64,000 bases of DNA from Acetanaerobacterium elongatum (GTDB lineage: Bacteria > Bacillota > Clostridia > Oscillospirales > Ruminococcaceae). The stretch lies in assembly GCF_900103835.1 (NCBI RefSeq), contig NZ_FNID01000009.1, positions 28,169 to 92,168 of the forward strand. The letters are read 5' to 3'. The translations under genes were made by a program, and so were the position numbers. Each line of letters opens with the position of its first letter. Position 1 is the first letter of the stretch. Of the stretch, positions 50,143-61,670 are shown piece by piece. Below the pieces are notes generated by a model. It searched no databases, had not been told where the DNA came from, and worked only from the letters and a program-made list of their open reading frames with translations.

Positions 50143-51042
50143 ATGCGCACACTCGGCTTTTTTGCCTGCCACCCGGCAACGCAGCTGTTGTATTTTGCGG
50201 CGGTGCTCACCCTTTCGCTGCTCTCGATGAACCCCGTCATCATTACAACCAGTATAGTTTTTGCATTGTGCGTCAATCTGTATTACTGCGGCAGGCAGGA
50301 GCTGGTGCTGATGCTGCGCGTCGCCCTGCCGCTGTTTGTCCTGATTACCCTTGCAAACCCGCTCATCAGCCACCGCGGCCGGATGGTGCTGTTTACGCTC
50401 TTTAACCGTTCCTTTACCCTCGAGGCGCTGCTCTACGGCGCGGTTTCCGGGCTGATGCTTGCGGCGGTGCTCTTGTGGTTCAACGCCTTTACCTTAGTGG
50501 TAAACAACGACCGCCTGCGCTTTCTGCTGGGAGGCGCGCTGCCCTCGGCCGCGCTGATTGTCACCATGACGCTGCGGCTCATCCCCCACCTTTTGCGCCG
50601 CCAGAGCGAGATTGACGGCGCCCTGTCGCTGCTCGAGCAGGACAAGCCCTTCGGGGGCGACAAAAAGCACAAACTCCGTATCACAATCCTCAAGGCTAAA
50701 AGGCTTTCTTCGGTGTTTACCATACTGCTTGCCGCCGCGCTGGAGGATTCGCTGGATACCGCACGCTCGATGAACGCGCGCGGCTACGGCACAGCAAGGC
50801 GAACGCAGTATACCCGCCACCGATTCAAGTTGCAGGATGCGGTGATTTGCGTGTTGCTTTCGTTACTTACCGTACTGTCAATTCTGTTGTATACCTTATG
50901 TAATGTCCGCTTCGCGTTCTATCCGGTGATGACACCGCTAACCTTTTCAGGCTATGAAGGGCTTTTCTACCTGCTCTTTGCCGGCTTAGCGGCGGTTCCC
51001 TTTATCTGTGACGGCTGGGAGGCTTTGCGTTGGAGATTTTAA
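50143..51042 (+). CDS. ecfT: energy-coupling factor transporter transmembrane (T) component
   Basis: 299 residues; AAGGAGG nine bases before ATG. About six helices and the EcfT coupling helices with the two A-R-G type motifs: SLDTARSMNARGYGTARRT is the classic second one. Role: scaffold linking S component and ATPases in uptake of a vitamin-like micronutrient. The next gene starts 13 bp inside this one. Confidence 0.93.
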   Translation: MRTLGFFACHPATQLLYFAAVLTLSLLSMNPVIITTSIVFALCVNLYYCGRQELVLMLRVALPLFVLITLANPLISHRGRMVLFTLFNRSFTLEALLYGAVSGLMLAAVLLWFNAFTLVVNNDRLRFLLGGALPSAALIVTMTLRLIPHLLRRQSEIDGALSLLEQDKPFGGDKKHKLRITILKAKRLSSVFTILLAAALEDSLDTARSMNARGYGTARRTQYTRHRFKLQDAVICVLLSLLTVLSILLYTLCNVRFAFYPVMTPLTFSGYEGLFYLLFAGLAAVPFICDGWEALRWRF

Positions 51043-52697
51043 GGCTTGACAGCTTCAGCTTTCGCTACCCCCATACACAACGCTGTGCGCTGAAGGATAT
51101 CACCCTCTCGGCAGACGAGGGGGACTTTGTGCTGCTCTGCGGCGCCTCGGGCAGCGGGAAAAGCACCCTGCTTGAAAACCTTAAGCCCGAGCTGCGGCGT
51201 AACGGCGAGCGCACGGGTGAAATCACCTGCCTTGGCCGGCCGCTGCAGTCTTTATCCCGCATGGAATCGGCCTGCGATATCGGCTTTGTGATGCAGAACC
51301 TCGAGGCGCAGCTGGTGGCCGACACCGTGCGCGGCGAGCTGTGCTTCGGGCTGGAATCGCTCGGCTTTCCGCCCGAGGTCATCCGCCGCCGGGTGGCCGA
51401 GATGGCAAGCTACTTCGGCTTGGGCAAGCTGCTAAACCGCAGTGTGAACACCCTCTCGGGCGGCGAAAAGCAGCTGGTTAGCCTGGCCTCGGTGCTTTCG
51501 CTCTCGCCCAAGCTGCTGCTGCTCGACGAGCCCGCCTCGCAGCTCGACCCCGTTGCGGCAAGGGAGCTGTTCTCGATGCTCGCGCGCATCAACAGCGAGC
51601 TGGGCATTACCATATTGTTGGCCGAGCATCATACCGAGGAGCTTTTTACCCTCTGCAGCAAAGCGGTACTGCTCCACAACGGTCAGGTGTCCTTCTGCGG
51701 AGCCCCCCGCGAGGCCGCACGGTTTATCACCCAAAACCGCACGCTCTCGAGTGATGCTATACCGCCCCAAACGAAAGAATCCGGTTCAGCCTATGTGTTT
51801 ACATCGCTGCTGCCCTCCGCAGCAAAGATTTTCCCCGATGAGCCGAGCCTTCCGCTTTCGGTGCGGGAGGGGCGCGCGCTGTTTAAGCAGAAAATAAGCG
51901 GCAGAACACCCCCCGCCCCCATGCCGGTAATACCGCCCACCGCGCCGCCCGCCGTATCGGTAACGGACGTGTATTTTGGCTACGGCAGCAAGGATACCCT
52001 GCTGTTTCATGACCTCTCGCTTACCCTGTATGAGGGCGAGCTCTCGGCAGTTATGGGGGCTAACGGCTCGGGTAAAAGCACGCTGCTCAAGCTGCTGTGC
52101 GGCCTGTTAAAGCCCAAGCGCGGTACCATCGAGCTGTTTGGAAAACGCGGCGCTAAACCTACGCTCGGCTATCTGCCGCAGAACCCCCGCCTGCTGTTTT
52201 TGGCCGACACGGTACAGCAGGATTTAACCGCCTGCGCCGAGAACCTAAGGCTTTTACACCCCGAGGAGCGTATACAATCCCTTTCGGAAGCATTGGGTAT
52301 TTCAGATATTTTAAGCAGCCACCCCTACGACATCAGCGCGGGAGAGCTTCAGCGCGCCGCCCTTGCCAAGGTGCTGCTCTCCTCCCCCCGCCTGCTGCTG
52401 CTCGACGAACCCACCAAGGCGCTGGACCCCTTCGCAAAGTCAAAGCTCGCCGCCCTGCTGCGCGGTCTTGTGCAAAGCGGCGTTACTGTTCTTTTCGCAA
52501 GCCACGACACCGAGTTCTGCGCCAGCTACTGCGACCGCTGCGCCCTGCTGTTCGACGGCCAAACCGCCGCAACAGGCGCTCCCGCACAATTTTTCGGCGG
52601 AAATGTCTTTTACTCCACCGCCGCCGCGCGCATCGCGGCAGGCTTTTCGTACGATTCCGTCACCTGCGGGGAGGTGCGCAATCTTTGGATAAAGTAA
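51030..52697 (+). CDS. ECF transporter ATPase with two fused ABC domains
   Basis: 555 residues, starting at TTG inside the ecfT end. Two complete nucleotide-binding domains in one chain: Walker A GASGSGKSTL and GANGSGKSTL, signatures LSGGEKQLV and ISAGELQRA, Walker B LLLLDEPASQLDP and LLLLDEPTKALDP. An about 60-residue Pro-rich linker around 265-310 joins them. Replaces the separate EcfA1/EcfA2 pair. Overlaps the downstream S-component gene by 13 bp. Confidence 0.95.
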   Translation: MEILRLDSFSFRYPHTQRCALKDITLSADEGDFVLLCGASGSGKSTLLENLKPELRRNGERTGEITCLGRPLQSLSRMESACDIGFVMQNLEAQLVADTVRGELCFGLESLGFPPEVIRRRVAEMASYFGLGKLLNRSVNTLSGGEKQLVSLASVLSLSPKLLLLDEPASQLDPVAARELFSMLARINSELGITILLAEHHTEELFTLCSKAVLLHNGQVSFCGAPREAARFITQNRTLSSDAIPPQTKESGSAYVFTSLLPSAAKIFPDEPSLPLSVREGRALFKQKISGRTPPAPMPVIPPTAPPAVSVTDVYFGYGSKDTLLFHDLSLTLYEGELSAVMGANGSGKSTLLKLLCGLLKPKRGTIELFGKRGAKPTLGYLPQNPRLLFLADTVQQDLTACAENLRLLHPEERIQSLSEALGISDILSSHPYDISAGELQRAALAKVLLSSPRLLLLDEPTKALDPFAKSKLAALLRGLVQSGVTVLFASHDTEFCASYCDRCALLFDGQTAATGAPAQFFGGNVFYSTAAARIAAGFSYDSVTCGEVRNLWIK

Positions 52698-53371
52698 ACA
52701 CCTCCCTTCGACGTGCGCTCATTCTTTTTGCAGCAGCCGCGGTACTAACCGCCGCGGTGCTCTACTCGGTGTTCCCGCAGGCGGTATCGCCGCAGCTATT
52801 GCCGCTTGCCGCGGTGCTGGTGCTGATTATCATCGGCTTTCTGTACTACGAGCTCACCCGTCCCTCTGCGCAGGAGTCCGCCGCCGTGGCGGTGCTGTGC
52901 GCGGCAGCGGTGGCTGGCCGGGTGCTGTTTGCGCCGCTGCCCAACTTCAAGCCGGTGGGTGCGGTGGTCATCATCGCAGGGGCGGTGTTCGGCGCGCCCG
53001 CGGGGTTTATCACGGGGGCGGTCAGCGCCCTGTGCTCTAACCTGCTGTTCGGGCAGGGCGCGTGGACACCGTGGCAGATGCTCGGCTTCGCCTTGGCGGG
53101 CGCTCTTTCGGGGGTGCTAAACCGCCGCGGCTGGCTGCTAAAGCGTACCCGCCTGTGCCTGTTCGGCGTTGCGATGGGCTACCTTTACGGTATCATCGTC
53201 GACGGCTTTTACCTCATCGGCTATGTAGAGCCCTCCCCCCAGGCGGTTTTTGCTGCACTGATGGGCGGGCTGCTGTTTAATACCATTCACGCCGCGGCAA
53301 ACGGCTTCTTTTTGTTCTGCTTCGGCGAGGCATGGGCAAAAAAGCTTGTACGCATCCGCGATAAGGGCTGA
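52685..53371 (+). CDS. ECF transporter substrate-binding (S) component
   Basis: 228 residues, TTG start within the ATPase gene end. Six hydrophobic helices; core FKPVGAVVIIAGAVFGAPAGFITGAVSALCSNLLFGQGAWTPWQM is the typical S-component loop between helices 3 and 4. The pattern is close to the CbrT-like cobalamin branch as I remember it, but no cobalamin riboswitch precedes the operon. Substrate therefore open: a B12-type or other vitamin. Confidence 0.88.
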   Translation: MDKVNTSLRRALILFAAAAVLTAAVLYSVFPQAVSPQLLPLAAVLVLIIIGFLYYELTRPSAQESAAVAVLCAAAVAGRVLFAPLPNFKPVGAVVIIAGAVFGAPAGFITGAVSALCSNLLFGQGAWTPWQMLGFALAGALSGVLNRRGWLLKRTRLCLFGVAMGYLYGIIVDGFYLIGYVEPSPQAVFAALMGGLLFNTIHAAANGFFLFCFGEAWAKKLVRIRDKG

Positions 53372-54283: not shown

Positions 54284-54728
54284 TATTTTTTAATATCTCA
54301 GTTAAAATCTTGTGGGGGCAAAACCCCTGTATCTGCCCCAATAAAAGAGCTTTCGTCAATCTATCCAGCTTCTAGTGGTTCTTTTTGTAAAATTAAGAAT
54401 ATAATACTCAAAAGTTTACGGTAAATTCACTTATTTACGCTGTGTATTGTTGACGTTTTTTCACCCGTGGTTTAAAATAAAACAGTAATCGGCCTTTTTC
54501 GCCGGTTGGCCTGCCTATGGCCGTCTTTATTTTATGACTGTACTCTTATCTGCTAACTTACGCACCGGTTTTCACCTGTCTTCGGGCTTATTGCCGCAAG
54601 GCACACTGCCCAAGGTCAATAATCGTGGTACATAAGCGAGGATCTTTAATTGTATTTGACTATGGGCGGCCTGAAAACATCGCCAACCCTTCGTTTTCAG
54701 CGGCGCTTTTATGGAGGTGGATATTATC

Positions 54729-55385
54729 TTGCCGCACGAGATTAAAATTGCGCCGTCGGTTCTGGCCTGTGATTTCGCACATATCGCCGACGAGATTAAA
54801 AAGGTAGAGGCTGCGGGGGCAGACTGGATTCATCTTGACGTAATGGACGGGCATTTTGTGCCCAACATCACCTTTGGGCCGCCTGTGGTAAGCAGCCTGC
54901 GCAAGATTACCACACTGCCTTTTGACGTACACCTGATGCTTACCGACCCGCTCATGTATGCAAAAGCCTTTGCGCTTGCGGGTGCCGACAGCATCACCTT
55001 TCATATTGAATCGGTGGGCGACCCTCACGCCGCAATCGAGTATATCCGCTCGCTGGGGGTTAGGGTGGGCATCTCCATCAAGCCCCACACCCCGGCGGAG
55101 GCCTTGTTGCCCTACTTAAAAGAGCTTGACCTTGTTTTGGTTATGACGGTAGAGCCCGGCTTTGGCGGCCAGCGCTTTATGAGCGATATGCTGCCCAAGA
55201 TCGAGATGCTGCGCAGCGGCATTACACGCCAGCGCCTTATCACCAACCTTCAGGTAGACGGCGGCATAGACGAGCACACCGCCTATCTGGTAAAGAAGTC
55301 GGGCGCTGATGTGCTGGTGGCGGGCAGCGCTATCTTTAGCCGCGAGGATTATAAAACCGCCATTGTCAGCCTTAAAAACGCATAA
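54729..55385 (+). CDS. rpe: ribulose-phosphate 3-epimerase
   Basis: 218 residues from TTG 54729. The earlier ATG at 54711 is part of ATGGAGGTG, which itself is the ribosome binding site nine bases before the TTG; starting there also matches the family N-terminus (KIAPSVLACDF). TIM barrel with HLDVMDGHFVPNITFGP, DVHLMLTDP, VMTVEPGFGGQRF and LQVDGGIDEHT: metal-binding His/Asp and catalytic Asp residues all present. Interconverts ribulose-5-P and xylulose-5-P in the pentose phosphate pathway. Confidence 0.97.
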   Translation: MPHEIKIAPSVLACDFAHIADEIKKVEAAGADWIHLDVMDGHFVPNITFGPPVVSSLRKITTLPFDVHLMLTDPLMYAKAFALAGADSITFHIESVGDPHAAIEYIRSLGVRVGISIKPHTPAEALLPYLKELDLVLVMTVEPGFGGQRFMSDMLPKIEMLRSGITRQRLITNLQVDGGIDEHTAYLVKKSGADVLVAGSAIFSREDYKTAIVSLKNA

Positions 55386-55388
55386 GCA

Positions 55389-55946
55389 TCACAGGGTTTT
55401 TAAAACCTCCAGCGTGTTCTTTGAAAGCAGCAGTGAGCCGTGCTCATCCAGCACCGAGAGTGCGAGCAGCCCCCCGCCGCACAGTCTGCCAAACTCCGAA
55501 AGCCCGGGCGCCAAGCGTTCCGCACTTTTTGCCCCCAGCACAATCCGGTACTTCCCGTTATAGCTGTAAAGCGCCAGCAACGGCAGGCGCAGCGGGCAGG
55601 TTCTGGCCCATGCCGCGGCATCCGAGATACCGTCAAACTCATAGATTACCGGGGTGCTTTCGGCAAGTGAGGATTTCTTTTTACCCTCGCCAAACAAGCC
55701 GGCCTCCAGCTTGGTAAACAGCAGGGTGCAGCTGCCGTCACTGTTGGAAAACGCCTCTATATAAAGCTTGGCACCCGTAAAGTCAAAGCCGGTTTTCACC
55801 TTGGCAAACGACAAAATTTCTGAAATTGCACGCTTGCTGGAGGGGCTTTGGTAATCCAGCTCCTCATAGGTGAGGTTTAAGCGTTCCATATCCGAGGTTG
55901 TCAGCAGTATCTTAATCTTATCGCTGTTGATTGCCTTAATAATCAC
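55389..55946 (-). CDS. MecA-like adaptor protein
   Basis: 185 residues from GTG 55946 (GGAGGG eight bases before). N-terminal IIKAINSDKIKILLTTSDMERLNLTYEELDYQSPSSKRAISEILSFAK matches the substrate-binding N-domain of MecA (negative regulator of genetic competence); the C-terminal half has a YEFDGISDAAAWARTC pattern like the ClpC-binding domain. Role in the family: present substrates to ClpCP protease. Convergent with rpe, 3 bp apart. Confidence 0.8.
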   Translation of the reverse strand: MIIKAINSDKIKILLTTSDMERLNLTYEELDYQSPSSKRAISEILSFAKVKTGFDFTGAKLYIEAFSNSDGSCTLLFTKLEAGLFGEGKKKSSLAESTPVIYEFDGISDAAAWARTCPLRLPLLALYSYNGKYRIVLGAKSAERLAPGLSEFGRLCGGGLLALSVLDEHGSLLLSKNTLEVLKTL

Positions 55947-56120
55947 AAAAACCACCCTCCAACAGCTTTAATAAGTTATAACCAATACAGTATATGCTCA
56001 AAAGCCGTGGTTTGAACCGCCGCGGCACATCAATGCTTTTCTTTGGCAAACAACTTCTTTATAGGCTCGCTTCGGGGCCTGCCGACATTATTTTAAAATG
56101 AAAGGGCGTGGATCTTACAT

Positions 56121-57383
56121 ATGGCAAGCTGGTTATGCGGCGAAAACCTGTATCAGGCAAAGGAGCCCGCTTTTTCACGTGAGCAGAAGGAATTCCTAAC
56201 CCCTTCTGTCCTTTATCTGCCCGAGTATGACGAGGCCGACGAGCCGCCCGCGAAGGTGCTTACGGCTGATGCGAGCTATCAGGGGAGCTACGAGTTTGAA
56301 TATCCCCGGCTTTCCTGCACCACCTTTTTGCGCTATCGCCTTAAAGCGGATAAGCCGAAGCACGAAGGCGAGGATGCTCTTTCCTACTCCTTTACCGATG
56401 CCCCTAAAAAGAAGCATAAGCACGAACCTAGCCTTCTCAGCAACAGGCAGGATCCGCTTGCAATAGATCATATCGAGCCCGAAGAACTGCTGGGCTTTGC
56501 CGAAGCCGCGCAGATTATAGACGAAACCGACGGAAAGCCCTTAACCCAAAAGCTTGAGGTGCTGTTTGAGGGCGGCTTTAACGCGCTGGTTTGCGACGCT
56601 ATCGACGAGCAGCCCTATGTATCCTCCAACATCAACACCCTGATGCATAAATCCGAGGAGGTATTGGGCGGGCTTTCGATGATTGCGAAGGCCGCAGGCA
56701 TCTCCAATATCTTTGCGCTGTGCTACGCCGATATCGACGATGCCGAAACCGTTATCCCCCACAAGATGTTTACCATCCCCATCAAGCGTGTCTATGGGCG
56801 CTACCCCGTGCGCGACCGCGTAAAGAAGCTGCTCGCCAAAAACGGCAGATGCTATGTTTTCGGCACGCAGGCCCTCATGCACCTTTATCGTGCCGTTACC
56901 AAAAAGGCGGTACATAACACCACCATTATCACCGTTGCGGGCGACTGTGTGGGCAACCCGCGCAACCTGGAGGTTCGCGTCGGCACCACCGCCCGAGAGG
57001 TGCTTGAATTCTGCGGCCTTGTTAAGAACCCCTCCCGCGTGATTATGGGCGGCAGTATGCGTGGTGCCGCTATTACCGACCTCGACCTGCCGGTGCTCTA
57101 CACCACCCGTGCCGTTTTGGCATTCGAAAGGCCTATCGAAAACGTGGTGCTCAGCTGCATCTCCTGCGGCCGCTGCATCGTCGACTGCCCGCGCGGTCTT
57201 GCACCGAACTATCTGTATAAGCAGTTTAACGCCCATAACCTCGATGCCCTCATCCAGCTTCGGGCCGACCGGTGCATCGAATGCGGCGTTTGTTCCTATA
57301 TCTGCCCCGCAAACCTGGAGCTTCTCCATGTAGTTAAAAGGGCGAAAACACTTGTGCTGGAAGTGAAGGCACAGGAGGAGTAA
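56121..57383 (+). CDS. rnfC: RnfC-like Fe-S subunit, divergent
   Basis: 420 residues; AAAGGGCGTGGATCTTACAT precedes ATG. The second half is RnfC: ALVCDAIDEQPYVSSNINTLM aligns with the NGAECEPYLT block, then VRVGTTAREVLEFCGL, VIMGGSMRGAAITDLDLPV, and two 4Fe-4S sites CISCGRCIVDCP and CIECGVCSYICP. The first 150 residues differ from ordinary RnfC: the N-terminal GGIHP-type start and the GGAxFP glycine loop for NADH/FMN, expected just before residue 150, are absent. Cytosolic peripheral subunit of an Rnf-like complex; first of four co-directional genes. Confidence 0.8.
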   Translation: MASWLCGENLYQAKEPAFSREQKEFLTPSVLYLPEYDEADEPPAKVLTADASYQGSYEFEYPRLSCTTFLRYRLKADKPKHEGEDALSYSFTDAPKKKHKHEPSLLSNRQDPLAIDHIEPEELLGFAEAAQIIDETDGKPLTQKLEVLFEGGFNALVCDAIDEQPYVSSNINTLMHKSEEVLGGLSMIAKAAGISNIFALCYADIDDAETVIPHKMFTIPIKRVYGRYPVRDRVKKLLAKNGRCYVFGTQALMHLYRAVTKKAVHNTTIITVAGDCVGNPRNLEVRVGTTAREVLEFCGLVKNPSRVIMGGSMRGAAITDLDLPVLYTTRAVLAFERPIENVVLSCISCGRCIVDCPRGLAPNYLYKQFNAHNLDALIQLRADRCIECGVCSYICPANLELLHVVKRAKTLVLEVKAQEE

Positions 57384-57451
57384 CCTGCCCTTAAAAGCGG
57401 GAATCCCTTCTTTCAGGCCACATCAATGTTGGAAAGGCAAGGTCATTTTAT

Positions 57452-58585
57452 ATGAATCTTCAACCTGCCAAGGCCCCACATATACGCTTTAAAGAGAGCG
57501 TACATACCTTGTTTACCGATGTCATCATCGCGCTGCTGCCGCTTTATGCCATGGCGTTTTTCTACTATGGCGGGCGCACACTGATTATGGCTCTTATCGC
57601 CGCAGCGGTATGCTATCTGCTCGATATCCTCTGCCGCAAGATGGCGGGTAAGGTTATTAAAATCAACGACTTCTCGGCCGTGATTACCGGCCTGCTGATA
57701 CCGCTGATGCTGCCAGCCTCGGTGCCCTACTATGTGGTGGTTGCGGCCTGCGCGTTTGCAATTCTTATTGCCAAGCACCCGTTCGGCGGCCTTGGCTACA
57801 ACCTGTTCAACCCTGCTGCCGCAGGCATCGCCTTTGCTACCGCCTGCTGGCCGAAGGAGGTATTCCGCTACCCCAAGCCGTTTGAGCAGATTCCGCTCAT
57901 ATTAAACAACCCGGTGGAGCTGTTCTCCTCCCCCGCAGCCGCTTTAAAGATTAACGGCGCCCCCTCCGGCGACCTGCTGCAGTTTTTCCTCGGCAATTCG
58001 CTCGGGCCGATGGGTGCTACGGCTATTCTGGTTATTTTAAGCTGCATGTTCTTTCTCATCTACCGCAGAACCATCTCGTGGCACATCCCCGTGTCGGCGC
58101 TGGCTGCGGCGGCTGTGTTTTCTTTGCTGTTCCCGCGCGTTTCCATCAGCCTGCTCAGCAGCACGGTGTACGAGCTGTTTGCGGGCACGCTGGTGTTCGG
58201 TGCGGCGTTTGTGGCAACCGATCCTGTTACCTCTCCGTCCTTCCCCATTGCCAAGATTATCTACGGCGCGGGAATCGGGCTGCTTACCATGCTGCTGCGC
58301 TGGTTCGGCGGCTTCGAGGAAGGCTTTATCTTTGCGCTGCTGATGATGAACACCCTTTCCTTTGCGCTGGACCGTCTTGCCATCTGGCTGCGGTTTGACT
58401 TAAACTCCGGCCGGGTACCCATAAGGCGGGTAAAGGCGGCGGCAAAGGGCTTTATGGCGCGCCGTGAGCACAAAAAGATCTATATCGATACCTCTGCCGA
58501 GCCCGTCACCGAGCCGGAACAGCAGCAGGACGAGGCTCAAAAGGAAGAGGCCACGGCACAATCGAAGGGAGGGCGGAACGTTTGA
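57452..58585 (+). CDS. rnfD: RnfD-like membrane subunit, flavin site altered
   Basis: 377 residues; AAAGGCAAGGTCATTTTAT before ATG. About ten helices, with the family blocks FTDVIIALLPLYAMAFFYYGGR, DFSAVITGLLIPLMLP, AKHPFGGLGYNLFNPAAAGIAF and FGAAFVATDPVTSPSFP. Where RnfD/NqrB carry (S/G)AT with the Thr that bears covalent FMN, this protein reads NPVELFSSPAAALK: Ser160 is at the Thr place. A 60-residue charged C-terminal tail (EQQQDEAQKEEATAQ) is extra. Membrane core of the Rnf-like complex. Confidence 0.88.
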   Translation: MNLQPAKAPHIRFKESVHTLFTDVIIALLPLYAMAFFYYGGRTLIMALIAAAVCYLLDILCRKMAGKVIKINDFSAVITGLLIPLMLPASVPYYVVVAACAFAILIAKHPFGGLGYNLFNPAAAGIAFATACWPKEVFRYPKPFEQIPLILNNPVELFSSPAAALKINGAPSGDLLQFFLGNSLGPMGATAILVILSCMFFLIYRRTISWHIPVSALAAAAVFSLLFPRVSISLLSSTVYELFAGTLVFGAAFVATDPVTSPSFPIAKIIYGAGIGLLTMLLRWFGGFEEGFIFALLMMNTLSFALDRLAIWLRFDLNSGRVPIRRVKAAAKGFMARREHKKIYIDTSAEPVTEPEQQQDEAQKEEATAQSKGGRNV

Positions 58586-58633
58586 AAAACTTCGCGTTCA
58601 GATTATCTCCCGCCGGAAAAGGGGGGCTGTTAA

Positions 58634-59317
58634 ATGGCTAAAAAGCGTAAAAACCGCTTTTTGATGAAGGTAAGGGAGTTCTGGTCGGCAAACCCCGTGC
58701 TGGTAAACGGCCTTACGCTTGCGCCGGTTGCGGTAGCCGCCATTTACCTTAAAAATGCGGTAGCCCTTTCGTTAACACTTGCGGTCATCACCATACCCAC
58801 CCTGCTTGTGGCATCGCTTATTCGTCAGCGGCTGCCGCTTGCACACCGCATCCCCATCTATGCGGTTATCTCCGCCATCTGCTATGCGGGAGCCACCGCG
58901 CTGATAAAGCTTTGGCTGCCTGAAACTGTTGAAACGGTTGGCATCTACCTGCCATTAATGATTACCAACACCATCGTTGTAATGCGTGCCGAGGCCTTCG
59001 GTGTACGCAACAAAACCCGTTGGGTGCTTCTGGATGCCCTGGTTCAGGTTCTGGGCTACGCGTTTGTGATCTGTACAGTCGGTCTTGTTCGCGAGTATAT
59101 CGGCAACGCCACCCTGTGGGGCAACCCGGTGGATAACGCGCTGCCCATCACCGGCATTGCGTTGCCGTTCGGCGGGCTTATTCTGCTCGGCCTGTTTGCG
59201 GCGTTGTACCAGTATATCAATAACCACGCGGCTCAGCGGCGTCTGAATGCGCATATCACAGTAAGCACCGGCGATGACGAGCCCGCTGCCGCTCAAACAA
59301 TGGAGGTGACAGGCTGA
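58634..59317 (+). CDS. rnfE: RnfE-like membrane subunit lacking cluster cysteines
   Basis: 227 residues, six helices. Clear RnfE/NqrD collinearity: FWSANPVLVNGLTLAPVAVA, HRIPIYAVISAICYA, YLPLMITNTIVVMRAEAFGVRNK and VREYIGNATLWG. In the canonical protein the first block is LGLCP and the second TNCIV; here they read LTLAP (Ala30) and TNTIV (Thr113), so both cysteines that hold the intramembrane 2Fe-2S cluster are gone. The gene directly follows rnfD (no rnfG between, gap 48 bp) and overlaps the rnfA start. Confidence 0.88.
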   Translation: MAKKRKNRFLMKVREFWSANPVLVNGLTLAPVAVAAIYLKNAVALSLTLAVITIPTLLVASLIRQRLPLAHRIPIYAVISAICYAGATALIKLWLPETVETVGIYLPLMITNTIVVMRAEAFGVRNKTRWVLLDALVQVLGYAFVICTVGLVREYIGNATLWGNPVDNALPITGIALPFGGLILLGLFAALYQYINNHAAQRRLNAHITVSTGDDEPAAAQTMEVTG

Positions 59318-59910
59318 TGGAGCTGCTGGCACAATTCTTTTCCGCCTCTCTGCTGGCGATTTTTGTAGAAAACCTTGTGCTCTCGCGCGGTCTTGGCACC
59401 AGCACGGTGCTGTTCTCCGCCCGCGGGGCAAAGCCGATCTTTATGTTCGGCGGCCTGCTTACGCTCATGACCACGCTCTCTTCCATGGCGGCCTTCGGCG
59501 TAAACCTTCTGGTCGGTTCGTTATCCTTTAAGGCATATGTTCGGCCTCTTGCGTTCATCCTCGCGATGACTGCCATATACTATATAGTATATTTTACACT
59601 GGGCCGGTTTATGAAATCCGGCGGCGAATATATCCGCAGATACTTAGGCTATGCAACCTTTAACTGCGCGGTGCTCGGCTCCGCCTACCTTGTTATCAAC
59701 GGAAAGTACGATATTATACAAACCCTTGGCTTCGGCATCGGCGCAGGCGTAGGCTTTACGCTGGCCTCGCTGCTCATCGCCGAGGGCAGGCGTCGGGTAG
59801 AGATGGCTGCGGTACCCAAGGCCTTTAAGGGCCTGCCCGTCACCCTGCTCTACATCGGTATCCTCTCTCTTGCCTTCTTCGGCTTTATCGGTCACCAGCT
59901 GCCGTTTTAA
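59317..59910 (+). CDS. rnfA: RnfA-like membrane subunit lacking one cluster cysteine
   Basis: 197 residues, six helices. Matches RnfA/NqrE over its full length: FVENLVLSRGLGTSTVLFS, RPLAFILAMTAIYYIV, YATFNCAVLGSAYLV, GFGIGAGVGFTLASLLIAEGRRR and LSLAFFGFIGHQL. The canonical GLCPF motif is GTSTV here (Ser29 for Cys); the second Cys (Cys117, FNCAVLG) is kept. Its ATG overlaps the previous stop (ATGA-type coupling). No RnfB gene follows; the cluster ends here. Confidence 0.9.
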   Translation: MELLAQFFSASLLAIFVENLVLSRGLGTSTVLFSARGAKPIFMFGGLLTLMTTLSSMAAFGVNLLVGSLSFKAYVRPLAFILAMTAIYYIVYFTLGRFMKSGGEYIRRYLGYATFNCAVLGSAYLVINGKYDIIQTLGFGIGAGVGFTLASLLIAEGRRRVEMAAVPKAFKGLPVTLLYIGILSLAFFGFIGHQLPF

Positions 59911-60142
59911 TCCCCCGCAAAGGGTTGTTATTCTGGCTGCTTTAAATTTTAACGACTTTATATGACTTCTTTTGTAGAATGACACGCATTATAATAGGTA
60001 TAGCCGGTTGTAAGATTATACCATTTATTTAACCCGGCAGCCTTACCATAAAGCCGCTGCCGCTTTAAAACCCTACCCACTCTGCGGCTATACCGGTTGA
60101 ATCAGGTTTTTGCCAGGCAAAAATCGGAAAGGCGTGATAGCG

Positions 60143-61363
60143 TTGTCTGACTTTCCGGGCTTTAAGATAAAGCGCAACAAAAGAAAATACCTTACTAAAA
60201 AGCAGCGGAGGTTCGCGGTTGTTAAAACCGTTGCCTCGGTTTTAGGTTTCTGTGTGCTCTTCTTCTTCGGCTACAGCATCGCCGAGCCGGTGATGAGCTT
60301 TTTAAACGGGGATATGCGCAAGCGTGTAGACGCAGCCTATGCCTCCTCGCAAACAGCCTCTCAGGCGCCTTCCTCCCAACCGGAGGAGAGTAGCAGTGCT
60401 TCCCCTGCGCAGGGGCTTAGCTTCTCCGATATCCGCGCCGCATTTATGCCGCACGATGTATTTATCAACGATGATCGCTTCAATGAGTTTATCGCTCAGG
60501 CTGGCTCTGTCGGCATCAACACGGCGGTGATTGAGCTAAAGGATGAAAGCGGTATAATCTATTACCGCTCCTCGGTTTCTCAGGCAAACGAGATCGGTGC
60601 CGTTGTTGAGGACGCCCCGAATCTCAGCGACCGGATTGCTGCACTCTCTGCGTCGGGCATACAAACCATTGCGCGCATCAGCACCTTTGAAGACCCTCTT
60701 GCCGCACGAAAGATTAAAGGCGCCGCCGCCCGTTACAGCAAGGATGTAACCAGCATCTGGCTGGATAACTACGAAACCGAAGGCGGAAAGCCGTGGATTA
60801 GCCCCGAATCGGGTGAAGGCGTAGGCTATATCACATCTATCGTCGAAGAGCTTGCCAAGTCCGGCGCTTCGTATGTAATGGCCGACACCCTTCACTACCC
60901 CAAGGGCAAGGGCTTAAATCTTGCCTACTTCGGCCCCAAGAGCAGCGATTCCCGCCAGAATGTGCTTAACGGCGTAATCGCCGGGTTGGAATCCGCCCTT
61001 TCAAGCACTAAAGCCAAGCTGATTGTATCGTACAACGCACAGGATTACCTTACCAAGGATGCGCTTGTATACGGCGGTGCGCCGAGTGAGCTTAACGCCG
61101 CTATTATAGCGCCAAAAATTCTGCCCGAGAGTTTCCCGGAGAACATCACAATCGGTACCGTAACGATTTCCGGCCCCGCGCAGATGCCCTACCAGCTCAC
61201 GCTGGCCTTTGCCGAAAGCTTTCAGGAGGATATCCCGCCCGAGACGCAGGTGCTGCCGTTTGTGTCCTATACCGACGAGGGTACCCAGGCCGAGCAGATC
61301 AAGGCTCTGAACGAGTGCTCCATCCCCCAGAGCATCCTGTATGCCGCTGACGGAAGATATTAA
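60143..61363 (+). CDS. DUF4015-like putative glycoside hydrolase, membrane anchored
   Basis: 406 residues from TTG 60143 (AAAGG ten bases before); another TTG 11 codons earlier is possible. Basic cytosolic N-terminus, one TM helix about 30-52 (ASVLGFCVLFFFGYSIAEPV), a Ser/Gln/Pro-rich linker (about 75-100), then a TIM-barrel-like domain: GINTAVIELKDESGIIYYRS, ALSASGIQTIARISTFEDP, IWLDNYE, YITSIVEELAKSGASYVMADTLHYP and LIVSYNAQDYL. Family function is predicted sugar hydrolysis at the cell wall. About 230 bp after the Rnf-like genes. Confidence 0.7.
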   Translation: MSDFPGFKIKRNKRKYLTKKQRRFAVVKTVASVLGFCVLFFFGYSIAEPVMSFLNGDMRKRVDAAYASSQTASQAPSSQPEESSSASPAQGLSFSDIRAAFMPHDVFINDDRFNEFIAQAGSVGINTAVIELKDESGIIYYRSSVSQANEIGAVVEDAPNLSDRIAALSASGIQTIARISTFEDPLAARKIKGAAARYSKDVTSIWLDNYETEGGKPWISPESGEGVGYITSIVEELAKSGASYVMADTLHYPKGKGLNLAYFGPKSSDSRQNVLNGVIAGLESALSSTKAKLIVSYNAQDYLTKDALVYGGAPSELNAAIIAPKILPESFPENITIGTVTISGPAQMPYQLTLAFAESFQEDIPPETQVLPFVSYTDEGTQAEQIKALNECSIPQSILYAADGRY

Positions 61364-61382
61364 AGGCAACGAGGTTAACGAC

Positions 61383-61670
61383 ATGAAAAAGATTCTACAG
61401 GCTATCGGCATTATTACGATTGTTGCGGGTTTTTGTGCATTCGTTGCGGGAATCCTTTATAAGCTTGCAGATAAGCATTTTCAGCTCGGCTCATTACATT
61501 CGAGCGATGCCGCTTCTATCGGCATCATCGGCGGTGCTGACGGGCCAACCGCTGTTTATATCTCTAATAAGGAGACCCTATCCGTCTTTCTAACTGCCGC
61601 CATCAATCTTATTGTTTCGGCAGCTGCGCTGGTTCTGCGCCTGCGCAAGCGTCTGCGCCCCAAGAGATGA
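61383..61670 (+). CDS. mini membrane protein with the GADGPT motif of Na+-decarboxylase beta subunits
   Basis: 95 residues from ATG 61383. Helix 1 about 4-27, then IGIIGGADGPTAVYIS (about 46-61), helix 2 about 64-84, basic tail. The central motif is diagnostic of OadB/GcdB/MmdB, the roughly 400-residue sodium-pumping decarboxylase beta subunits, where it forms part of the ion pathway. Here it is a short free-standing protein; no alpha, gamma or full-length beta subunit gene is nearby. Coupled to the preceding hydrolase gene (19 bp gap). Confidence 0.65.
   Translation: MKKILQAIGIITIVAGFCAFVAGILYKLADKHFQLGSLHSSDAASIGIIGGADGPTAVYISNKETLSVFLTAAINLIVSAAALVLRLRKRLRPKR

Follow-up and report, generated by a model that had tools for sequence, protein, structure and literature searches.

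A conserved Rnf-derived C-D-E-A gene set in Acetanaerobacterium elongatum and its relatives lacks RnfB, RnfG, and the [2Fe-2S] ligand set and may encode a redox-gated transporter or switch

The 64,000-nucleotide (nt) stretch of Acetanaerobacterium elongatum DNA analyzed here (the window; contig NZ_FNID01000009.1, positions 28,169 to 92,168) carries an operon of homologues of rnfC, rnfD, rnfE, and rnfA. In the ferredoxin:NAD+ oxidoreductase Rnf, electrons are described as passing from RnfB to the cluster shared by RnfA and RnfE, then to the flavin mononucleotide (FMN) of RnfG, the flavins of RnfD, the clusters of RnfC, and finally NAD+ (PMC11889175 and PMC12174285). We find that the window operon belongs to a clade of stripped loci in which much of this route has disappeared, while the segment from the clusters of C to the riboflavin of D has kept its ligands. 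The anatomy and history of this set, as read from sequence, are well supported. As to function, we tentatively favor a redox-gated membrane transporter or switch over a ferredoxin:NAD+ oxidoreductase.

The initial annotation of this DNA described C, D, E, and A homologues in that order with tight spacing, and the open reading frames (ORFs) agree with it. The genes for the homologues of RnfC (positions 56121 to 57383 of the window), RnfD (57452 to 58585), RnfE (58634 to 59317), and RnfA (59317 to 59910) are all intact and on the forward strand, with spacers of 68 nt between C and D and 48 nt between D and E and a 1-nt overlap between E and A. Against the NCBIfam models, D scores above its cut-off (RnfD, 223.1 bits; cut-off, 207.05), and the other three score below theirs (RnfC TIGR01945, 148.8 bits and 245.95; RnfE, 94.3 and 213.4; RnfA, 97.0 and 229.3). 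The Pfam PF03116 and PF02508 matches in the operon clearly exceed their cut-offs. Sequence searches of the PDB match D, A, and E to subunits of both Rnf and the Na+-translocating NADH:quinone oxidoreductase (Na+-NQR) and match C to Rnf subunits, and a structure model of C (mean predicted local distance difference test score [pLDDT], 85.0) is nearest to 8ahx_C, 8rbq_C, and 9eri_C.

Relatives of the operon come from two collections. The window A protein, used as a query, matched 55 of 61 genomes, and the first 42 loci from those genomes comprise 28 stripped loci, 13 canonical six-gene loci, and one (L076) truncated by a contig end just ahead of A, its A reaching 101 bits under the stripped model and 85 under the canonical model. 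An alignment of A proteins, used to scan GTDB contigs, found another 65 loci, of which 62 are stripped and three canonical-type (L137, L140, and L141); for three of the 62 (L099, L107, and L139), the sequence in hand covers only A and the gene for a DUF4015 protein. With L076 counted, the total is 91 stripped loci. Five loci are duplicated across the two collections, and 82 non-redundant stripped loci with D, E, and A remain after their removal. The 62 named stripped loci are all from Clostridia (52 from Oscillospiraceae; NCBI ranks), and the other 29 are the window's own locus, 24 from the same family, and 4 from the same order. Carriers are relatives of Anaerotruncus, many from animal guts, and include Anaerotruncus colihominis DSM 17241, Merdimmobilis hominis, Massilioclostridium coli, Clostridium methylpentosum, Candidatus Soleaferrea massiliensis, and Marasmitruncus massiliensis. 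The nearest A proteins (P0003, P0006, and P0011) are 86 to 88% identical to that of the window. In a class-wide survey of 99 genomes (E up to 1e-30), which may miss weakly scoring forms such as locus L162 described below, a stripped-type score was found only in the window's own genome (237 bits; next best, 145), and three of the next-best matches, when fetched, are canonical.

The absence of rnfG and rnfB noted initially is confirmed among the ORFs of the window operon and extends to the whole collection: neither gene was detected in any of the 91 stripped loci, compared with G in 35 and B in 32 of 36 canonical loci. Numbered against Acetobacterium woodii, the [2Fe-2S] ligand Cys25 of A is retained in 1 of 91 stripped loci and Cys113 of A in 57 of 91, and Cys25 and Cys108 of E are each retained in 0 of 87. 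Per non-redundant locus, none of the four cysteines remains in 30 of 82, one remains in 51, and two remain in 1; all four are present in 16 of 16 canonical rows scored. The window has Ser29 at Cys25 of A, Ala30 and Thr113 at the two cysteines of E, and a single survivor, Cys117 at Cys113 of A, next to a retained Asn116 (Asn112); its three nearest A proteins have the same Ser and the same Cys. The FMN-bearing Thr of D (Thr156) is found in 2 of 87 rows, both within an altered motif, and in the window it is Ser160 (57929 to 57931), with the flanking motif also gone. The NADH/FMN loop of C (GxGGAxFP), whose G, GG, A, and FP are present in 14 of 14 canonical rows, is likewise missing from the window C, and all 55 stripped loci with C have a gap where GGAGFP has its Ala. 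In place of the loop stands a clade-wide acidic motif (codons 132 to 145 in the window, IIDETDGKPLTQKL; 56514 to 56555), with D, E, and D at three positions in 53, 51, and 53 of the 55 loci. The NAAECEPY of canonical C has become a DA-x-DDEPY-like motif, which in the window is DAIDEQPY (codons 159 to 166; 56595 to 56618).

The further statement that every cofactor site checked within the membrane or for NADH is changed or missing is not borne out. Window C keeps its SLBB domain and both 4Fe-4S motifs, and the eight Cys of the two [4Fe-4S] clusters (codons 346 to 395; 57156 to 57305) are all present, as they are in 56 of 56 rows labeled stripped (55 stripped loci and the canonical-type locus L140, which was labeled by score) and in 14 of 14 canonical rows. 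The residues named as riboflavin ligands of RnfD in PMC11889175 are also retained in the window, N123 as Asn120 (57809 to 57811) and D249 as Asp257 (58220 to 58222). With ligands read from sequence, as for the C clusters, Asn is found at 123 in 75 of 87 rows and Asp or Glu at 249 in 84 of 87. C is absent from 31 of the 82 non-redundant loci, two of which (L054 and L133) have too little upstream DNA to judge, and its presence changes four times on the tree. Both riboflavin ligands are there in 51 of 51 loci with C, and the Asn at 123 is there in 19 of 31 loci without it. The electron path has thus been lost as far as the [2Fe-2S] set, the FMN-Thr, the NADH/FMN loop, G, and B are concerned, and what persists, where C is present, is the set of [4Fe-4S] cysteines in C together with both ligands for riboflavin in D.

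In a D+E+A tree of 118 rows (a quick search without bootstrap), a single branch splits the 82 stripped from the 36 canonical rows, with a Shimodaira-Hasegawa approximate likelihood ratio test (SH-aLRT) value of 100 and a stem of 1.04 changes per column. The tree check that had been proposed comes out in favor of the initial view, with one clade that shares the losses. The other proposed check, the ratio of nonsynonymous to synonymous substitution rates (dN/dS), is low as well: over C, D, E, A, and DUF4015, nine close stripped pairs give 0.028 to 0.219 where dS was computable (D and DUF4015 of the pair L125/L138 yielded none), and one canonical pair gives 0.125 to 0.257 for C, D, E, and A. These pairs are relatives, the window being without a close DNA relative in the comparison. 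Isolated decay in this genome, for which clade members with the cysteines would be needed, was rejected in view of the clade-wide losses and the low dN/dS; in none of the 82 loci do three or all four of the [2Fe-2S] Cys remain. The losses and the purifying selection together bear out the initial view of a conserved, Rnf-derived set without the requirements of a ferredoxin:NAD+ oxidoreductase.

The stripped genes occupy a recurring chromosomal slot, rpe-(mecA)-[C]-D-E-A-DUF4015. Within the fetched stretches, 83 of 91 stripped loci have rpe (ribulose-phosphate 3-epimerase), and 26 of 91 have a MecA-like gene. In the window, rpe (54711 to 55385, forward strand) marks the upstream end of the slot, and the MecA-like gene (55389 to 55955) is divergent, on the reverse strand. 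DUF4015 lies behind A in the same orientation in 85 of 91 loci, with a gap of at most 100 nt in 78 (longest-ORF starts); in the window, its longest ORF begins 199 nt 3' of A. It is a fifth gene of the set, which had been taken to consist of four. Among the 11 canonical loci first fetched from the other families of the order, four (L056, L058, L065, and L069) have rnfCDGEAB followed by DUF4015; L069 has a MecA-like gene, and L056 reads rpe-rnfCDGEAB-DUF4015. Because the stripped set lies between rpe and DUF4015, where L056 has a complete rnfCDGEAB, the simplest reading is that an ancestral rnf was altered in place. This would mean loss in place at the rpe-DUF4015 slot, with a second, complete Rnf elsewhere, and few outgroups stand behind it. 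A recent duplicate of the family's canonical Rnf was considered and rejected: the family's canonical rows nest among canonical rows, apart from the stripped clade, and neither rpe nor DUF4015 was found in the fetched stretches of any of 22 canonical loci of the family.

One locus, L162 (genome G042, 98% complete), looks like a nearly canonical transitional form of stripped Rnf. It has C-D-E-A-DUF4015 without G or B and has lost both Cys of A, one of E, the Thr of D, and the loop of C, and its D is still canonical-like (449 bits versus 320). Its E carries a long Pro/Ala/Glu-rich N-terminal extension. In the D tree, L162 adjoins the stripped clade (97), and in the C tree, the smallest starred set that contains both L162 and the stripped rows also takes in a canonical row. 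Monophyly of L162 plus the stripped rows is compatible with an approximately unbiased (AU) test (P = 0.73). There is no need to assume a second stripping wholly independent of the first, since the D tree makes an early branch of the same event an equally good reading.

The genome of A. elongatum also has a second, ordinary rnfCDGEAB on another contig and five FMN_bind matches, one of them inside that canonical locus. FMN_bind proteins also lie near ApbE genes outside the rnf loci on contigs C24 and C25 of this genome (G000), which suggests further flavinylated systems. A canonical-type RnfE/A pair accompanies the stripped pair in six of six named genomes tested, and 20 of 20 second loci picked from other genomes of the family are canonical, 18 of them with all six genes detected. 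In contrast, the only RnfE/A pair of genomes G042, G001, G022, and G036 is the stripped one. These four genomes (the last three 84 to 86% complete) gave no FMN_bind protein and no RnfB match above the cut-off, and no ApbE was found in G042 or G036. The question raised initially of whether rnfG and rnfB are encoded elsewhere thus has a divided answer: they are in the window's own genome, and these four genomes disfavor borrowed subunits as a general explanation.

The window DUF4015 protein (60110 to 61363, forward strand; start uncertain, TTG at 60110 or at 60143) matches PF13200 with 93.5 bits (cut-off, 27). It has a single N-terminal membrane segment by hydropathy, followed by a glycoside-hydrolase-type barrel, and its model has a mean pLDDT of 89.3. 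In Foldseek, the top match is 4s1a, domains of PgaB and of GH20 hexosaminidases come next, and PelA is tenth; the first ten matches have template modeling scores (TM-scores) of 0.39 to 0.54 by query length. At the position of the acid in the 4s1a strand FDYIRFP, the window protein has Asp, as do 38 of 85 DUF4015 proteins of stripped loci overall, so activity need not extend to all members. A literature search for the term DUF4015 turned up PMC12700454 alone, in which a figure legend mentions DUF4015-YkyA fusions.

How the stripped set might work can be sketched from what it retains. C would take an electron from a soluble donor, and its clusters would set the redox state of the riboflavin in D. 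With FMN, G, and the A/E cluster gone, that electron would have no known onward route, and the change in D could instead shift the D-E-A core to another conformation. At the former [2Fe-2S] site, the positions rich in Ser, Thr, and Asn might then form an ion or small-solute site with alternating access, and DUF4015, predicted to lie on the outer face, might act on or bind wall or surface glycan beside the complex. Lineages that lack C would have a core free of redox control. Ser, Thr, Asn, or Asp is found at A25 in 66, at A112 in 77, at E107 in 76, and at E108 in 55 of 82 loci, the mean fraction of these residues across membrane columns being 0.15 in A and 0.14 in E. An electron in the riboflavin-to-C segment without a known exit is more in keeping with a gate or sensor than with a pump, and taken together with the polar former-cluster positions, it leads us to favor a transporter or switch gated by redox; its main rival is a plain transporter. 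Its role would possibly be that of a redox-controlled transporter at the cell surface. We are more doubtful of the fuller account, in which Rnf was turned once, in place, into a machine that needs no transmembrane electrons, with a polar ion or solute site in the A/E cavity, a C-riboflavin gate dropped in some lineages, and a product that serves the wall-facing DUF4015. Should that account hold, it would define a new transporter class built on the Rnf fold.

Several observations weigh against these proposals. At the former cluster, E25 has become Ala, Pro, or Gly, which are not polar, and A113 remains Cys in 52 of 82 loci. The ion pair of RnfE, R67/E115, is found in 11 of 51 loci with C versus 28 of 31 without C (raw Fisher P = 6e-10), so that loci with C may not use the R67/E115 route for ion movement. 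RnfA E88, of the same network, is retained in 1 of 91 loci (Tyr in the window). The window, a C-type locus, retains both residues of the pair (Arg72 and Glu120). Since the ion pair requires 12 changes on the tree and C presence 4, with only 2 to 4 independent pairs, the association of the two is a pattern and not a proven link. Few events likewise underlie the association of C with the riboflavin ligands, namely 4 changes of C presence and 2 to 4 independent pairs (sign test P = 1). As for the slot, rpe precedes only one, and DUF4015 follows four, of the 11 canonical loci from the other families, and in five genomes (loci L165, L167, L168, L170, and L171), DUF4015 comes after rpe without intervening rnf genes (gap of ~0.8 to 1 kb in L171 and L165), the rnf genes having been either lost or never present. 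Three genomes that have D-E-A (G014, G017, and G031) yielded no DUF4015. Because D-E-A and DUF4015 each occur without the other, their pairing within a shared neighborhood is not obligatory.

The strongest alternative, possible but on balance unlikely, is a non-redox transporter or scaffold: D-E-A would simply be a secondary transporter or channel, one that might serve the wall-facing DUF4015, and the ligands of C and D would be structural leftovers. This would account for the repeated absence of C and for the ion pair in nearly all loci without it, but leftovers would not be expected to keep all eight Cys and both riboflavin ligands in 51 of 51 loci with C over such long branches, and the window's own locus has C. 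We give a lower probability to a short oxidoreductase, in which electrons would pass from a donor through the clusters of C and the riboflavin of D to a membrane or external acceptor, by analogy with NqrB. The ligands retained are those of the C-to-riboflavin segment, and the riboflavin of NQR is described as handing electrons directly to ubiquinone (PMC12174285). However, a search limited to the operon and its neighbors identified no acceptor or acceptor site, the scheme is impossible for loci without C, and it leaves the conserved E and A without a clear role. It is less probable still that stripped subunits mix or compete with those of a canonical Rnf as its partner or regulator: canonical Rnf or its E/A pair is indeed found in the window's genome, in the six named genomes, and among the second loci of the family, but the four genomes with the stripped pair alone and no FMN_bind protein, three of them only 84 to 86% complete, speak against this. 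A decaying remnant without function, which the long branches, the many lost sites, and the five slots without rnf genes might suggest, is very improbable given open frames, a dN/dS no higher than 0.219 versus 0.125 to 0.257 in the canonical pair, and new residues conserved clade-wide.

Elsewhere around the operon, a 96-amino-acid ORF downstream of DUF4015 (61380 to 61667, forward strand) matches a 47-position piece of OAD_beta, the beta subunit of Na+-translocating decarboxylases, and is a short stand-alone protein rather than a full subunit. Putative importer genes of the energy-coupling factor type (transmembrane, double-ATPase, and substrate parts) were recognized by eye at 50143 to 53371 on the forward strand. 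A Rex site has been reported ahead of rpe in Caproicibacterium (PMC9600882), and control by Rex was considered on that basis, but there is no general signal upstream of the stripped operon. At least 12 of 14 consensus positions match in 1 of 85 upstream regions (0.05 expected from mononucleotide shuffles) and at least 11 in 2 of 85 (1.4 expected); upstream of canonical C, at least 12 of 14 match in 2 of 35 (0.1 expected). The C proteins of some relatives bear a long Ala-rich or Glu/Pro-rich C-terminal extension (L123, 3237 to 6290; L098, 4220 to 6130). Fusion partners of C were dismissed, since in L123, L100, L086, L135, L098, and L109, six loci with a long C ORF, Pfam recognized no additional domain, and the C-terminal extensions of the two examined in full are low-complexity.

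Among the papers listed by literature searches that covered few subscription journals, we met no title or beginning of an abstract that describes the stripped set. Where database names have been assigned to its proteins, they are mostly Rnf names, and counting such proteins as Rnf would therefore overstate energy-conserving capacity. Ion movement through A/E in Rnf and NQR is hard to study, as redox and conformation are not easily separated; a natural clade in which the A/E/D core is under selection and the [2Fe-2S] cluster has been discarded would offer a test system for cluster-free transport.

Among the known systems close to the stripped set is Rnf itself (PDB entries 7zc6, 9eri, and 8ahx), with which it shares homologous C, D, E, and A in the same order, the 4Fe-4S ligands of C, the riboflavin ligands of D, and a slot seen in one outgroup rnfCDGEAB. 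It differs in lacking RnfB, RnfG, the [2Fe-2S] ligand set, the FMN-Thr of D, and the NADH/FMN loop of C. PrdC, associated with proline reductase, is another RnfC-like protein in a non-Rnf context, but the match of window C to the PrdC profile is weak (35.8 bits; cut-off, 490). PrdC is not known to occur with D-E-A. The fifth gene product resembles the DUF4015 proteins of PF13200, whose solved member 4s1a is its top Foldseek match, and differs in that the uneven conservation of the FDYIRFP acid makes activity uncertain. Na+-NQR (NqrABCDEF) is thought to derive from an rnf operon after loss of rnfB and with a changed C subunit (Reyes-Prieto 2014, PMC4014512), and it is described as keeping the transmembrane electron path of Rnf, with an NqrA that has no cofactor and a gained NqrF (PMC12174285). 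The stripped set made the reverse choice, since it keeps the cluster Cys of C and has no NqrF-type reductase among its operon ORFs, and alongside NQR it appears to be a second instance in which an Rnf operon was turned to a different use.

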